From Lachnospiraceae bacterium (lineage in GTDB: Bacteria > Bacillota > Clostridia > Lachnospirales > Lachnospiraceae): 64,000 bases of DNA. The notes beneath the pieces are model-generated. The model was not told the DNA's origin. It searched no databases and saw nothing but the letters and a program-made list of their open reading frames with translations. The position numbers and the translations under genes were made by a program. The stretch lies in contig JAFRSU010000068.1 in the NCBI GenBank assembly GCA_017427415.1, positions 1 through 64,000 of the forward strand, read 5' to 3'. Each line of letters starts with the position of its first letter. Position 1 is the first letter of the stretch. Positions 11,872 through 44,390 of the stretch are shown one piece after another.

Positions 11872-12047
11872 GAGATAATAATACGGATTGCTCCGCTACC
11901 GCTCTCGCAATCCTAAACACACCTCAAATCTCGTGCTTTGCTTCGCAAATCACTTCTTTTCGGTGTGTTTTATCGGTCAGCCATTGTAAAATTTCTTTGC
12001 AAGCGAGCTTGCACGAAATTTTTAATGGCCTCCCTCATTATTATCTC
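11872..12047. mobile_element. 176-bp MITE-like element with nested hairpins
   Basis: Terminal inverted repeats GAGATAATAAT (11872-11882 against 12037-12047) bracket three further hairpins: GGATTG...CAATCC (11885-11912), AAACACACC...GGTGTGTTT (11915-11970) and a long arm CCATT...AATGG with AAATTTC/GAAATTT (11981-12028). No reading frame of note lies inside. The right terminus supplies the stop codon of the neighbouring rod gene. The shape fits a miniature transposable element or a strongly folded intergenic RNA. No transposase is present. Confidence 0.6.
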
Positions 12048-38382: not shown

Positions 38383-41300
38383 TCATTTTCTATCAAGATA
38401 CATAATAGTATGTCTTGAGTTTACAAAAAAACTCAATAAATTTGAAACATCTAAATGTCCGCCAATTCCAAATACTTCATCAGCATATGCCTTTGCTTCC
38501 CAGCATTCCTGTAAGTCAATTTTTATCAGTCTACTCCAAGAGGAACAGTATACAAAAGTTTTCTTTAATATTTTGTCTTGTTCAATTTTAACAATATTAA
38601 CATTATGCAATCCAACACTACCGGTTCTGTTAGATGACGGAATAATATACTTATAATTAGTTTTTCCTACTATATGAAGTAGCACCGGAAAGTTTTTTCT
38701 TAAGGACGAACATATTTTCGACTCTATATCTGTATAATTATAATTTTGACTGTCACAAGTAAAAATGAAATTCGAAATATTTTTATCTTCTAAATAAGAA
38801 TTAAGATTTCTGGCAATAGTTGTAGGTACCACCCCCCAAGTACCAGATTTCTTGGTTATCGCATCAGATATAGTAATTCCATAATATTCTGATATAATCT
38901 TATCATTTATTATCATATGTAACAAACTAATAACAGTACTTTCTACATCCATAAGATTGACATAGTTTTTCTCTAACCAACGAACATAATCATTATATTC
39001 ATTAAAGCTTATTTGCTCTTTAGAAGTATCAACCGGGGTCAATTGAAGATTTTTAAAATGTCTATTGTATTTTTGTAAATAAAGTAAGTAATCGGCAGCT
39101 GCAATCACCCCACATCCATTAGACAGTTGCTTGCTTTGCAGATCATCTATTCCATCAATAGGATTCTTACTATAAAACCACTCTTGATTTCCACCATACA
39201 TATCATTATCTAAATTAATCCTGGCTCCAGTTTTGGGGTCATGTACGTATTCTGCAGATGTATCAATAGAAACATACTTATCAAAATCCAATAATTGCAC
39301 TATTCTAACATCGCTGTTAAAACCATCAGAATAATAAAGCCTTGCTTCATCATAATCTGAATACCCATCATTGTCAAAATCATCACAAAGTGGGTGACTT
39401 CTGACATTATATGAGTTAAAACTCAAAAGCATTGTATTCTCAAAATAACTAATTCTGACATTATCTTCATCAATTACGCCTCTAAAGATTTGTCTGTCCA
39501 TACCCATTTCCAAGCCATCGTCAAGCCCGTCACCATCTGTGTCAGAATTGTATGGATCAGTATAAACTATAGTTCCATCAGGGAGGATCATCCCTGTTAA
39601 TTCTGTACAGTCCGGAATCCCATCACCATCTGAATCCTTTGTATCAGCCACTCCTAAAGCCATTGTCAGTATCATGCTGATAGCATCATCAAAATCACTT
39701 GGTTTTTCAACAAAATACACTTCCCCACCGGTATCCCTTATATTACGCATCAGAGCACCTCTGGTAACCGAATCCAAAGAAGGTCCTACATAAATATAAT
39801 ATAATTCAATACCGTCATCTTTGAAGCTTTTTATTTTATTGAACTGTGTCAACTTTTCGTCTGAAACAAGTATAAGCTTTTTCTTATTCTGAGAAACATT
39901 ATCTACAGAGAAAAAATTATCATGAAGAGATCTGCGCATAAAGTCATAATCGCATGTTCCTTCCTCTGCCTTTATCTTATATGATTTTTCCAAAAAAGAA
40001 TTCTTATTTGCGTCAAATGTACTGTTTTCTACCTTATATCTCCATACTGTCGTCCTATTATCATTCGTCGTTGGAATCGAGTGTTCGCCTTCTTCTTCGC
40101 TTCTGTATATCTCCATTAACCCTATAGAGATTTCCGGTCCAAACAAGTCGATGTTTTCACCGATAGCTGCGATAATTTTTGCCATTTTCTCTGAATCAGT
40201 TTTATAACATGCCTGTCCCGGATTGAATAAGAACATTATTTCATAATTCGGATATTCAGATGCAAGCTCATTTCTTATAGAATCGAGAGCCGATTTAACC
40301 ATTCCTTCATTACTTATTGTATAAAATTTGCCACCACAGTCTTCGATACTCTCTGTAATATTTGTCAGAAGAACGCCATCTATTTCATTGCCGGTATATA
40401 GCTGATATATGCATATCCCTGATTCTTTTAATTCATTTACCAATTCCTGCCTCTGTTGGGTCTGATCGGCTATAAGATATGAGTTAGATACCCATATCAC
40501 AACCTTATTATCTTTTGTCTCTGTCGAACAATTTTGAAAAAATGATTTCATCCCCTCTAGTTCCTGCATTATGGTCGCATACTGATCCCGTGGCTGTATT
40601 TTATCCAAAAAATCTCTCAAGGATGCATACGATTTTGTAAAACTCAGGAATCTTTGATGTGAAGAGTACTTCTTACCATCCGTATATGTTATACTCTCTT
40701 CTGTATCATCAACTTCCACTTGGTATCCGAATGCTGAACTTAAACCTATTTCATCGTCTTCCAATTTTGCCCTTGCTATTCGGTTAAACCCATTTATTAC
40801 AAGAGAAGTATTATTCTTAAAATAATCTCTACCCACATCTATTGCTACCTGTATATCAATATGTGGATCGTCAATTCCAAGAGTAGAACGGATTTGTTTT
40901 CCTTCGGACGATTTATTAAACAAATCCAATATCAAACTTTTTAGAGCTATCATTCTGATTGAAAAATGATCTGCCGGACAGGTTATGGTATTAGCTTCGG
41001 TATCAATAATTGCATCTTCCAATATTACAAAATGCTGATGCTCCTCATCATACCAGAGCATACAAAGATCGTTTTCATCAACATCTCCCAATTTATCCTC
41101 ATAGTATTCAAAGGTTATCACAGCATTTTCATATTCTTTTTCTACGGAAATATCAAAAGGAACACCTACCCTAGCACTGAATGTAGAAGAGAAAACATGT
41201 CTTCCGAACATATTTTCTATATATACGCTGTCCTCCACATCCCCTGCTATATCGAGATCAACTTTGACACTCTTTATGGCGCCAAAAGATTCAGGTATAA

Positions 41301-42948
41301 CATATTCTCCTTTAAAAAGGGGTATAGTTTCTCCTACTCTATTACATAGATCATCATATTCATATCCTAGATCATCCGTATATAAGGCAACATTCTGCCT
41401 TATTTTTTCTTCACCATCAATTATACCATTTCCATCAGTATCCGGATTCAGGGGATTGAAATCATGCTCAAGCTCAAATTTATCTTTGAGTCCATCTCCA
41501 TCGGTATCTGATAAATATGCGCTTGTATTATAAACACTTATCTCATCACTGTCCGTTAATCCATCTTGATCGAAATCCTTATCACTTTCAAAATCAGAGT
41601 CAGGAACTTTGGGATCCATGCCATTGGTCAGCTCTATAGAATCCGGTATCCCGTCTCCGTCAGTATCAGGATTATCCGGATTAGTTCCTATGCCCAGTTC
41701 AATATATAATGGTAGCCCATCTCCATCAGTATCAGAATATAATTCTTCCAATGTATAATCCGGTATTTCTGTCGGAACCGGAGTATCTGTTACGGGTGGT
41801 GCTTCCGTTATCGTAGGAGTGATTTCATAAGTCTGGTTTTCAGTTGGTGTCACATTTGGTGTTATCGTAGGTTCTTCCGTTATAACGACAGAAGGTGTAC
41901 CCGAAATCATTTCAGTCGGAGTTATTTCTTCGGTGGGAGTTACTGCTTCTGTGGGCGTAATTTCATCCGTTGGTGTTATAACATCTGTAATTGTTGGTTC
42001 AGGGGTGATTGTTTCTGTAGGTGTTTCCGTAACAGTTACTCTAGGCTCATCTGTAACGGTAGGCACAGGGGTTAAAGCCTCTGTAACAGTAGATGCGGGA
42101 TCCCCATTCTCATTAATACGGATATCTGTCATAAAGGTATCTATAACTGTTCCGGTCACAGGTACTCCATAGGTTCCGTTTGCTGTAAAGCCTATGTATA
42201 TCTGCTCTCCGGGCTTTATCTCAGAATTATAGTTTCTATTTTTTATTATATAGTGATTACCCTGTCTTTCTATAAGATCAGCTGTATGGAAATCTATTAC
42301 ATCGATATCGGTTGTAAATTCCAAGCTCCAATCCTCAATTACAGTCTCAGATATGTTTCTAAGAGTAAAAACCCCGTTGTAATTATAATTTGTTTCCCCA
42401 TATATTAACGCGCTGAAAACATAATCAACACCCGGTACATCTACCTCTTTCTGTGCCATGTTATAAGTATCAGGCAGTACAAAAGAGCTGTATTTTGCCG
42501 GTATGCTCAAAGACATTCCTAATTCTATCTGTGCCCCAATGGGTATATCTTTATTATGGCGGTCATTCTTTACGGTATAACGGAATAAATCAGTGCCGTC
42601 ACCGGATAAAAAGCTTTCTTTATCAATAATTACTGCATTCCATATGTTTGTTATATCACATCCCATAGTAAAAGTCAGTGCCCAGTTATCTATAACTTCT
42701 GCACCGGTATTTCTGATTACTAACCTTGCATTGCACGCTCCCTGCCAGGCATCTGTGATCATAATCTCTACGCCATATCCTGTCCCCTCATAGTTATATA
42801 TAAGTCCTGGATATATCGTATCATTCGAAACAGGCTCATCAGCTGAAACCGAAACCCCGGCAGGCAGCAATCCTATTATCAGACTTAAAACAAGCAGAAT
42901 CGCCATTAAACGGTTTTGATACATTTTTTTCTTTGCTGTTTTTCTCAT
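38383..42948 (-). CDS. Large secreted multidomain protein: CBM2-like modules, calcium repeats, vWA-like domains, C39/papain-like cysteine peptidase
   Basis: 1521 residues. Signal peptide about 1-36. Two CBM2-like beta-sandwiches (about 45-165 and 172-283, each with an IxNTG or LRNIS strand and WxLxF core). A Pro/Thr stalk (about 285-395). Thrombospondin-3/EF-like calcium repeats (DTDGDG pattern, about 405-515, again 1103-1145 and 1188-1200). Two vWA-like regions (about 698-900 and 903-1095) that lack a canonical DxSxS metal site. The C-terminus (about 1265-1521) resembles C39/papain-like cysteine peptidases: SNGCGVIAAADYLLYL with C1279, then VGLHNVNIVKI with H1448. The third-residue region reads VYCSSW, without the usual Asp/Asn. 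No sortase motif. Preceded by a c-di-GMP-I riboswitch, followed by the I42-like gene. Confidence 0.85.
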   Translation of the reverse strand: MRKTAKKKMYQNRLMAILLVLSLIIGLLPAGVSVSADEPVSNDTIYPGLIYNYEGTGYGVEIMITDAWQGACNARLVIRNTGAEVIDNWALTFTMGCDITNIWNAVIIDKESFLSGDGTDLFRYTVKNDRHNKDIPIGAQIELGMSLSIPAKYSSFVLPDTYNMAQKEVDVPGVDYVFSALIYGETNYNYNGVFTLRNISETVIEDWSLEFTTDIDVIDFHTADLIERQGNHYIIKNRNYNSEIKPGEQIYIGFTANGTYGVPVTGTVIDTFMTDIRINENGDPASTVTEALTPVPTVTDEPRVTVTETPTETITPEPTITDVITPTDEITPTEAVTPTEEITPTEMISGTPSVVITEEPTITPNVTPTENQTYEITPTITEAPPVTDTPVPTEIPDYTLEELYSDTDGDGLPLYIELGIGTNPDNPDTDGDGIPDSIELTNGMDPKVPDSDFESDKDFDQDGLTDSDEISVYNTSAYLSDTDGDGLKDKFELEHDFNPLNPDTDGNGIIDGEEKIRQNVALYTDDLGYEYDDLCNRVGETIPLFKGEYVIPESFGAIKSVKVDLDIAGDVEDSVYIENMFGRHVFSSTFSARVGVPFDISVEKEYENAVITFEYYEDKLGDVDENDLCMLWYDEEHQHFVILEDAIIDTEANTITCPADHFSIRMIALKSLILDLFNKSSEGKQIRSTLGIDDPHIDIQVAIDVGRDYFKNNTSLVINGFNRIARAKLEDDEIGLSSAFGYQVEVDDTEESITYTDGKKYSSHQRFLSFTKSYASLRDFLDKIQPRDQYATIMQELEGMKSFFQNCSTETKDNKVVIWVSNSYLIADQTQQRQELVNELKESGICIYQLYTGNEIDGVLLTNITESIEDCGGKFYTISNEGMVKSALDSIRNELASEYPNYEIMFLFNPGQACYKTDSEKMAKIIAAIGENIDLFGPEISIGLMEIYRSEEEGEHSIPTTNDNRTTVWRYKVENSTFDANKNSFLEKSYKIKAEEGTCDYDFMRRSLHDNFFSVDNVSQNKKKLILVSDEKLTQFNKIKSFKDDGIELYYIYVGPSLDSVTRGALMRNIRDTGGEVYFVEKPSDFDDAISMILTMALGVADTKDSDGDGIPDCTELTGMILPDGTIVYTDPYNSDTDGDGLDDGLEMGMDRQIFRGVIDEDNVRISYFENTMLLSFNSYNVRSHPLCDDFDNDGYSDYDEARLYYSDGFNSDVRIVQLLDFDKYVSIDTSAEYVHDPKTGARINLDNDMYGGNQEWFYSKNPIDGIDDLQSKQLSNGCGVIAAADYLLYLQKYNRHFKNLQLTPVDTSKEQISFNEYNDYVRWLEKNYVNLMDVESTVISLLHMIINDKIISEYYGITISDAITKKSGTWGVVPTTIARNLNSYLEDKNISNFIFTCDSQNYNYTDIESKICSSLRKNFPVLLHIVGKTNYKYIIPSSNRTGSVGLHNVNIVKIEQDKILKKTFVYCSSWSRLIKIDLQECWEAKAYADEVFGIGGHLDVSNLLSFFVNSRHTIMYLDRK

Positions 42949-43013
42949 ACTCTTCTTCCTTTCATTTTCTTAAAACCAGTTCTTTGCCATCATTATATAA
43001 ACATACTGCATAA

Positions 43014-43046
43014 CTAAAAAATGCCACAACAAATAAATGCTGCAGC
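43014..43046 (-). terminator. Candidate switchable terminator after the GEMM aptamer
   Basis: GCTGCA pairs with TGTGGC (two G-U pairs) and is followed by ATTTTTT on the minus strand. Its 5' arm is also the 3' strand of the aptamer closing stem, so ligand-bound aptamer and terminator would exclude each other: an ON switch. Confidence 0.55.
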
Positions 43047-43148
43047 CGAACTATCAGTTTCAATATGTTTATTGTTAGGAGTTCTTGAACATATGCCACT
43101 GACTTCTAACTTTGCGTCCCAAGGTCACCCTTGGTTTGCCCCACCGCT
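43041..43148 (-). promoter_or_regulatory. c-di-GMP-I (GEMM) riboswitch
   Basis: Minus strand reads GGGGCAAACC, a CCAAGG-GTGA-CCTTGG hairpin with a GNRA loop, then GGGACGCAAAG exactly as in the Vibrio Vc2 aptamer. A second, longer stem follows (TCAGT...ACTGA, ATATGTT...AACATAT), then GTTCGGCTGC. These are the invariant parts of the GEMM-I aptamer. It sits in the leader of the 1521-residue secreted protein, whose ATG is about 90 bases further on. Confidence 0.92.
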
Positions 43149-43191
43149 ATTATCTCAAAATCATCCACTAAAGTCAAGATAATTCTCTTGA
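43149..43191 (-). promoter_or_regulatory. Promoter of the riboswitch-protease unit with an inverted repeat at its -35
   Basis: TTGACT (plus 43172-43177), 17 bp, GATAAT (43149-43154) on the minus strand; transcription would start at or next to the aptamer. An inverted repeat TCAAGA-N6-TCTTGA (43174-43191) overlaps the -35, between this promoter and the divergent ald promoter. Confidence 0.7.
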
Positions 43192-43212: not shown

Positions 43213-43241
43213 TTGACATTACCTTTTCTGAAATATATAAT
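43213..43241 (+). promoter_or_regulatory. Consensus sigma-A promoter of ald
   Basis: TTGACA (43213-43218), 17 bp, TATAAT (43236-43241): perfect consensus, with a short leader of about 33 nt to the ATG at 43281. Confidence 0.88.
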
Positions 43242-43280: not shown

Positions 43281-44390
43281 ATGAAAATCGGATGTGTAAA
43301 AGAAATCAAAAACAATGAATTCCGTGTAGGTCTGACACCTGACAATGTCCGTGCTTATGTAGCTGCAGGACACCATGTATATATGGAAAAGGGCGCCGGT
43401 ATCGGATCGGGATTCGCTGACAACGAGTATGTGGATGCAGGTGCTTCCCTCATCGACAACGCTGCAGATGTATGGCATCTGTCAGACATGATGATCAAGG
43501 TAAAGGAGCCGCTCCCCGAGGAGTACAGCCTGTTCCATGAAGGCCTGATCCTTTATACCTATCTTCATCTTGCAGCCGACAAGGAACAAATGGATGCATT
43601 ACTTGAAGGCAAGGTTAAGGCTGTAGCTTATGAGACCATCCAGGAGGACCGTTTCCTTCCCTGCCTCGCACCCATGTCACAGATAGCCGGACGTCTTTCC
43701 ATCCAGGAAGGTGCTAAGTACTTAGAGAAGAAATTCGGCGGAGAAGGCATACTTTTAGCCGGTGTACCCGGTACACCCAAGGCAAACGTTGTCATCCTCG
43801 GCGGCGGTACCGTAGGTATGAATGCCTGCAAGATAGCAGTCGGTATGGGTGCTAATGTAACTATCCTCGATGTCAACTTAAAGAGACTTGAAGAGCTTGA
43901 CAATATGTTCGGAGCTCATATCCAGACACTTGTCAGCAACGACAGCAACGTAGAAAGAGTAGTAAAAGATGCGGACCTCGTCATCGGTTCCGTACTTATC
44001 CCCGGCGGTTCCACACCCAAGCTGTTCAAGAAAAAATATCTGCCCGAGATGAAGAACGGTGCTGTATTTGTAGATGTAGCCATCGACCAGGGCGGATGCG
44101 GCGAGAGCAGCCATGTTACCACTCATGACGATCCCGTATTTATCGAAGACGGCGTAGTTCATTACTGTGTAGGAAATATGCCCGGTGCAGTTCCCAGAAC
44201 AAGTACCATCGCTCTTACCAATGCCACTCTTAAGTACGGTCTTATGATAGCTAAGGACGGCTTAGAGGAAGCAAGTAAGAAGAGTGCAGCCATCTATTCA
44301 GGTGTTAACTGCTACTTAGGTAAGCTTACCAACAAGAATGTTGCTTTGGCACATGGTTATGATTTTACAGAGCTTTCTGAGATGATCTAA
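43281..44390 (+). CDS. ald: Alanine dehydrogenase
   Basis: 369 residues. N-terminal MKIGCVKEIKNNEFRVGLTP carries the catalytic-domain RVGLTP motif; YLHLAADKEQMDALL and the Rossmann motif VVILGGGTVGMNACKIAVGMGANVTILD (NAD+ binding, about 170-198) follow, and the end GNMPGAVPRTSTIALTNAT is family specific. It interconverts L-alanine with pyruvate plus ammonia, linking carbon and nitrogen metabolism. Monocistronic, with consensus promoter and strong terminator. Confidence 0.95.
   Translation: MKIGCVKEIKNNEFRVGLTPDNVRAYVAAGHHVYMEKGAGIGSGFADNEYVDAGASLIDNAADVWHLSDMMIKVKEPLPEEYSLFHEGLILYTYLHLAADKEQMDALLEGKVKAVAYETIQEDRFLPCLAPMSQIAGRLSIQEGAKYLEKKFGGEGILLAGVPGTPKANVVILGGGTVGMNACKIAVGMGANVTILDVNLKRLEELDNMFGAHIQTLVSNDSNVERVVKDADLVIGSVLIPGGSTPKLFKKKYLPEMKNGAVFVDVAIDQGGCGESSHVTTHDDPVFIEDGVVHYCVGNMPGAVPRTSTIALTNATLKYGLMIAKDGLEEASKKSAAIYSGVNCYLGKLTNKNVALAHGYDFTELSEMI

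Follow-up and report, generated by a model that had tools for sequence, protein, structure and literature searches.

A predicted c-di-GMP-I ON riboswitch with a promoter abutting its aptamer, ahead of a secreted-protein gene of a Lachnospiraceae bacterium

In Bc3, Bc4, and Bc5 of Bacillus thuringiensis, three class I c-di-GMP (c-di-GMP-I, GEMM-I) riboswitches with ON logic, the ligand-free terminator takes up the ligand-binding C, P1, and part of the P3 strand (PMC4759541). The pilM GEMM-I element of Geobacter metallireducens is also a transcriptional ON switch with mutually exclusive aptamer and terminator, and its P1 is not preformed; Cd1, a c-di-GMP-I riboswitch of Clostridioides difficile, has no detectable P1 helix and still binds c-di-GMP (PMC9262584). 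The closing helix P1, present in Vc2 and absent in Cd1, lies outside the Rfam structure; in Vc2 it starts with G14-C93, six nucleotides 5′ of G20 (PMC3764141). Loop residues 34 and 35 of the Vc2 structure dock on pairs 60-78 and 59-79 (PMC3764141, PMC3494683). The riboswitch described here, in a 64,000-nt stretch of DNA (the window), belongs to this already known type, since ON-type terminators and P1-less class I aptamers have both been published (pilM, Bc3-5, and Cd1).

Covariance-model analysis of the 64-kb window confirmed the minus-strand element at 43150-43038 as a c-di-GMP-I aptamer. The Rfam model RF01051 matched it with 43.3 bits (gathering score 35; E 3.7e-5) over 87 of 87 model positions. 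The initial annotation, which had proposed a GEMM-I aptamer and this very search as its check, was thus borne out: every motif that it named lies on the minus strand, i.e., GGCAAACC (43140-43133), the GUGA-capped stem (GUGA, 43128-43125), GGGACGCAAAG (up to 43110), and GCTGCA (43046-43041). The alignment retains the ligand-contact bases (Vc2 numbering) G20 (G43140), A47 (A43113), and C92 (C43042), and P2 and P3 lie side by side, with the AG bulge in P3. The strand reads TTGACT-N17-TGAGATAAT-AGCGGTGG-GGCAAACC-AAGG-GUGA-CCUUGG-GACGCAAAG, followed by P3 and then by ACUGAUAGUUCGGCUGCAGCA-UUUAUU-UGUUGUGGC-AUUUUUU, with the start codon 65 nt further on. Two related classes were rejected: c-di-GMP-I-GGC (RF03167) scored 40.7 bits, below its gathering score of 59, the window having A, not G, at the A47 position, and GEMM-Ib/cGAMP riboswitches need A at position 20, where the window has G43140. 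The same genome holds seven other RF01051 matches, six of them above the cut-off. The score of the window aptamer is the second-lowest of these eight (the six best span 67 to 52 bits), which is explained mainly by the distal P3 insertion of 39 nt and a missing receptor motif, the core being intact.

Features of the riboswitch locus (window coordinates)
Feature	Position	Strand	Basis
Promoter: -35 TTGACT (43177-43172), 17-nt spacer, extended -10 TGAGATAAT, hexamer GATAAT (43154-43149)	43149..43177	-	Consensus scan; conservation in the orthologue leader L010
Predicted transcription start, most likely G43142; range 0-4 nt ahead of G43140 (G20 equivalent)	43140..43144	-	Inferred from -10 spacing
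c-di-GMP-I (GEMM-I) aptamer, Rfam limits	43038..43150	-	RF01051; transcribed part probably from near 43142
P2 stem-loop CCAAGG-GUGA-CCUUGG	43119..43134	-	Sequence and Rfam alignment
CAAAG including the A47 equivalent (A43113) and P3 5′ strand ending GUCAGU, without CUAA receptor motif	43098..43114	-	
P3 distal extension, 39 nt, mostly a weak hairpin; shorter or absent in relatives	43059..43097	-	
P3 3′ strand (ACUGAUAGUUCGGCU) and C92 equivalent (C43042)	43042..43058	-	
Terminator hairpin 43046-43023 (9 bp, -10.8 kcal/mol) and six-T tract 43021-43016; 5′ arm overlaps P3 base and C92	43016..43046	-	
Ribosome-binding site AGGAAG, 6 nt before ATG	42955..42960	-	Sequence
Regulated gene, 1521-aa secreted protein: two CBM2 matches, Pro/Thr linker, TSP3 calcium-type repeats, weak vWA-like region, C-terminal C39-like Cys/His motif	38383..42948	-	C39-like and vWA parts inferred
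Next gene, 139-aa membrane-anchored protein, probably cotranscribed; similar frame after the orthologue in L010	37967..38386	-	

The CUAA/UAUG receptor in P3 is common in c-di-GMP-I riboswitches but not universal. In the window, the loop GUGA faces the continuous helix GUCAGU/ACUGAU, not GAAA with a CUAA/UAU receptor, so that a GNRA loop with an 11-nt-like CUAA/UAUG receptor is missing, as is the receptor from many bona fide members of the class. A scan of 84,980 genomes retrieved at least 120 loci in which a class I core carries a GYRA loop. Among the matches listed (L173-L292), the third loop base covaries with the receptor pair (Fisher p = 8e-8, U-A versus C-G): with G, pair 60-78 was U-A in 40, C-G in 11, and A-U in 4, and with A it was C-G in 27, U-A in 6, and A-U in a single case. 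The published tendency of GYGA toward AG/CU and of GYAA toward GG/CC (PMC3494683) thus reappears inside one riboswitch class, and the survey offers, within such a class, a small natural experiment on the rules that match GNRA loops to receptors. The rarer A-U form occurs in the window, L048, and L008; among the matches listed, four unrelated bacteria (L177, L178, L192, and L210) also combine it with GUGA. This occurrence elsewhere, together with the loop/receptor covariation, indicates that the missing CUAA motif is no sign of decay. Packing of P2 on P3 would probably involve the GUGA loop and the C-A/U-G step of the P3 helix, in place of GAAA with its CUAA/UAU receptor. GYGA loops usually have a partner other than the A60:U78 that G34 would contact here, which counts against our preferred explanation.

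These data also bear on the idea of a decayed or ligand-shifted aptamer that, with the canonical receptor lost and a long insertion in P3, would not respond to c-di-GMP. Its low rank within the genome, the broken copies among its relatives (L010 and L008, see below), and the abolition of Cd1 binding by mutation of the loop adenines (PMC9262584) fit this idea. We nonetheless judge it highly improbable, because no ligand-contact base is altered and the C-G cross-strand pair is preserved, GYGA loops on plain helices are widespread in this family and obey the covariation, and the GUCAGU/ACUGAU helix is found in L048 as well. Further points against it are G at position 20, instead of the A of cGAMP types, and the RF03167 score below cut-off.

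Downstream, the aptamer strand GCTGCA opens the hairpin GCTGCAGCA-TTTATT-TGTTGTGGC (43046-43023), behind which come one A and a run of six T. In the 5′ arm of this terminator, GCUGCAGCA, the GCU that ends the P3 strand is joined by G, the C92 equivalent, and AGCA; an aptamer strand is thus common to the terminator arm, as in ON-type transcriptional riboswitches. The strand sharing noted in the initial annotation therefore stands, and folding adds mutual exclusion of the two structures and comparison adds retention of the hairpin in relatives. The unconstrained terminator state was computed at -36.1 kcal/mol and the aptamer-enforced state, with Rfam pairs imposed (G21-C, C22-G, P2, and P3), at -31.7 kcal/mol. 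Upon lengthening of the transcript from 117 to 120 nt, the pair probability of the P3 base fell from 0.91 to 0.008, while that of the terminator rose from 0 to 0.98. This trade-off marks the two structures as alternatives, and ligand capture before nucleotide 120 should give read-through. The folding model leans toward termination by 4.4 kcal/mol, a point against the ON-switch reading, so switching must be kinetic or depend on tight binding.

A strand-sharing terminator of at least 9 bp arose in 98 of 5000 dinucleotide shuffles (2%) of the downstream 60 nt. The hairpin by itself is therefore modestly improbable, and it is its conservation in relatives that makes it firm. Across the window, L010, and L048, 27 of 27 cells are paired, with variation at four of the nine pairs (one two-sided and three one-sided changes); in this three-sequence comparison the shuffle control is uninformative, and sliding the partner lowers pairing to 30-70%. 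The stem is weak, with 4 G-C and 3 G-U among its 9 pairs, which counts against the ON-switch reading. An ineffective terminator, with the aptamer acting otherwise, e.g., on translation or RNA stability, would accord with these few G-C pairs, with the 65 nt between hairpin and start codon, and with the long alternative pairings predicted downstream. It seems improbable, however, given that hairpin and U tract persist with pair-preserving changes in L010 and L048, that the Shine-Dalgarno sequence (42960-42955) is distant from the switching strand, and that many relatives have the same layout. Strand-sharing terminators were found in approximately 40 of 142 aptamers surveyed in the same bacterial family, the exact number being cut-off dependent; the ON layout is thus common and, although offered as remarkable, has precedents in Bc3-5 (PMC4759541) and pilM (PMC9262584). 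For the non-ON switches of the genus, an antiterminator role of the P3 loop (GGATGTT versus the arm AGCATC) was rejected, as the conservation that inspection had suggested proved no stronger than in shuffled sequence. These non-ON switches (L001, L005, L006, L041, L044, L059, and L061) often precede a small protein or domain with a MKGYLTLAEAAEKWNV-like start (excisionase/HTH type).

The extended -10 promoter adjoining the aptamer matches 10 of 12 consensus positions, and 8 nt separate its hexamer from G20, the first G in GGCAAACC. The promoter invoked in the initial annotation is present, TTGACT-17-TGAGATAAT at 43177-43149, and puts +1 at about 43142. The closing stem deduced from this position as short would instead be missing: in Vc2, P1 occupies nucleotide 14 and those 5′ of it, no closer than 6 nt to G20. 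The lack of a P1 helix has a published precedent in Cd1 (PMC9262584). Given the 8-nt distance, no 5′ strand of P1 is expected in the transcript, and the A that follows C92 in the window makes the apical G14-C93 pair of Vc2 impossible. Judged from promoter position, the transcript probably has no P1. The orthologue leader L010 keeps both boxes (TTGACT and TGtGATAAT) and the 8-nt distance to GGCAAACC, whereas the 8 nt themselves differ, as expected of a promoter spacer and not of an RNA helix strand.

Spacing was compared across 31 aptamers of the genus (L008 left out). In ON-type switches with a recognizable promoter, the distance from the -10 hexamer to G20 was 6, 6, 7, 7, 8, 14, and 22 nt (6-8 nt in five of seven), versus 16-41 nt in the other switches (Mann-Whitney p = 0.0015, an optimistic value for related sequences); the median in the wider family survey was about 24 nt among strong promoters. 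We give even weight, for and against, to the existence, among the ON-type c-di-GMP-I switches of the genus, of a sub-group built without P1, in which an extended -10 promoter fixed 6-8 nt before G20 would leave the 5′ triphosphate end beside the ligand pocket and ligand binding alone would hold the 3′ strand against the terminator. An ordinary P1-containing ON switch, driven by a promoter further upstream and closed by a short P1 of GCGGU (43147-43143) with GCAGC (43043-43039), appears unlikely, if less so than the alternatives above. The minimum-energy fold including the 5′ flank does pair these strands, in a weak 4-pair helix around a G-A mismatch; a second promoter-like site lies at 43232-43205, and other aptamers of the family have longer 5′ flanks. 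Against it speak the promoter abutting the aptamer, the conservation in L010 of boxes and spacing but not of the would-be P1 strand, and the A after C92. The promoter-abutting, P1-less design seems to be the most interesting testable feature of this riboswitch and its sole unusual trait; with the start point as predicted, it would provide a natural minimal class I aptamer in which to probe the need of P1 for binding and switching. Elsewhere in the window, a perfect sigma-70 consensus promoter (12/12, TTGACA-17-TATAAT; 43213-43241, plus strand) serves a divergent alanine dehydrogenase gene (43281-44390), and a Clostridiales-1 RNA (RF01699, 86.8 bits) lies at 11876-12043 on the minus strand.

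The L048 element of a sister genome (G006:C123) resembles that of the window in its GUCAGU/ACUGAU helix and strand-sharing terminator; it has a GCGA loop and a promoter 6 nt before G20, and differs in a short P3 loop and in the downstream gene (289 aa). In G001, an orthologous gene (57% identity) carries one in-frame TAG, and its leader (L010, 6190-6058, minus strand) has promoter and terminator, with the aptamer deleted from the P2 loop to P3. This leader is predicted to be locked off, and its loss of most of the aptamer counts against our preferred explanation. On contig C32, a half aptamer of 31 bits continues into the part of a CBM2 paralogue that encodes its signal peptide, and this paralogue has no normal start codon (L008, 1501-1560; L023, 1387-1600); the fusion probably arose by deletion. 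Both look like broken copies, although draft assemblies could mislead.

The regulated gene encodes a protein with a signal-peptide-like N terminus, in agreement with its earlier description as secreted. Its vWA-like stretch has an E value of 0.04, below the cut-off, and its C-terminal NGCGVIAA...LHNVNI resembles C39-type cysteine peptidases by eye, without Pfam support; the orthologue shares the Cys and His of this motif. A structural model of the C-terminal domain, built from two sequences, reached a mean pLDDT of 30. A protein-query search of genome contigs found no relatives of the 1521-aa protein. In a sister genome (L013, 2363-3354, the same place as L047), a 266-aa secreted protein bearing a C39-like GCELAACY motif is encoded behind a c-di-GMP-I aptamer and its strand-sharing hairpin and is followed by a CBM2-subtilase protein, a comparable set of functions spread over separate genes. 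With 27 GGDEF matches in the genome of the window itself, production of c-di-GMP is likely, and the 1521-aa protein may reasonably be supposed to act in attachment to polysaccharide induced by c-di-GMP. The riboswitch would thus tie c-di-GMP to a cellulose/chitin-binding-type secreted protein in a relative within the Clostridia.

We consider the locus a likely transcriptional ON switch of the class I c-di-GMP type, with a start at or near G20 and an RNA that has P2 and P3 and no P1. RNA polymerase would start at G20 or a few nucleotides from it. Without ligand, nascent GCUGCAGCA would quit the P3 base and the C92 pocket and pair with UGUUGUGGC, forming the terminator before the U tract. The doubling of the 3′ strand as terminator 5′ arm implies ligand-induced read-through: c-di-GMP bound between G20, A47, and C92 on the newly made aptamer would retain the shared strand and block the terminator, and the CBM2/TSP3 secreted-protein gene would be transcribed.

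Such a switch would share class I identity, ON logic, and the capture of the ligand-binding C by the terminator with Bc3, Bc4, and Bc5, which, unlike the window element, stand in tandem, have a P1 stem and a canonical tetraloop and receptor, and precede a different gene (PMC4759541). It is reminiscent of pilM in the mutual exclusion of aptamer and terminator, but pilM senses cGAMP and forms P1 only with ligand (PMC9262584). With Cd1 it has in common the predicted lack of P1, whereas Cd1 is an OFF switch with separate terminator and antiterminator, the canonical receptor, and more nucleotides before the G20 equivalent (PMC9262584).
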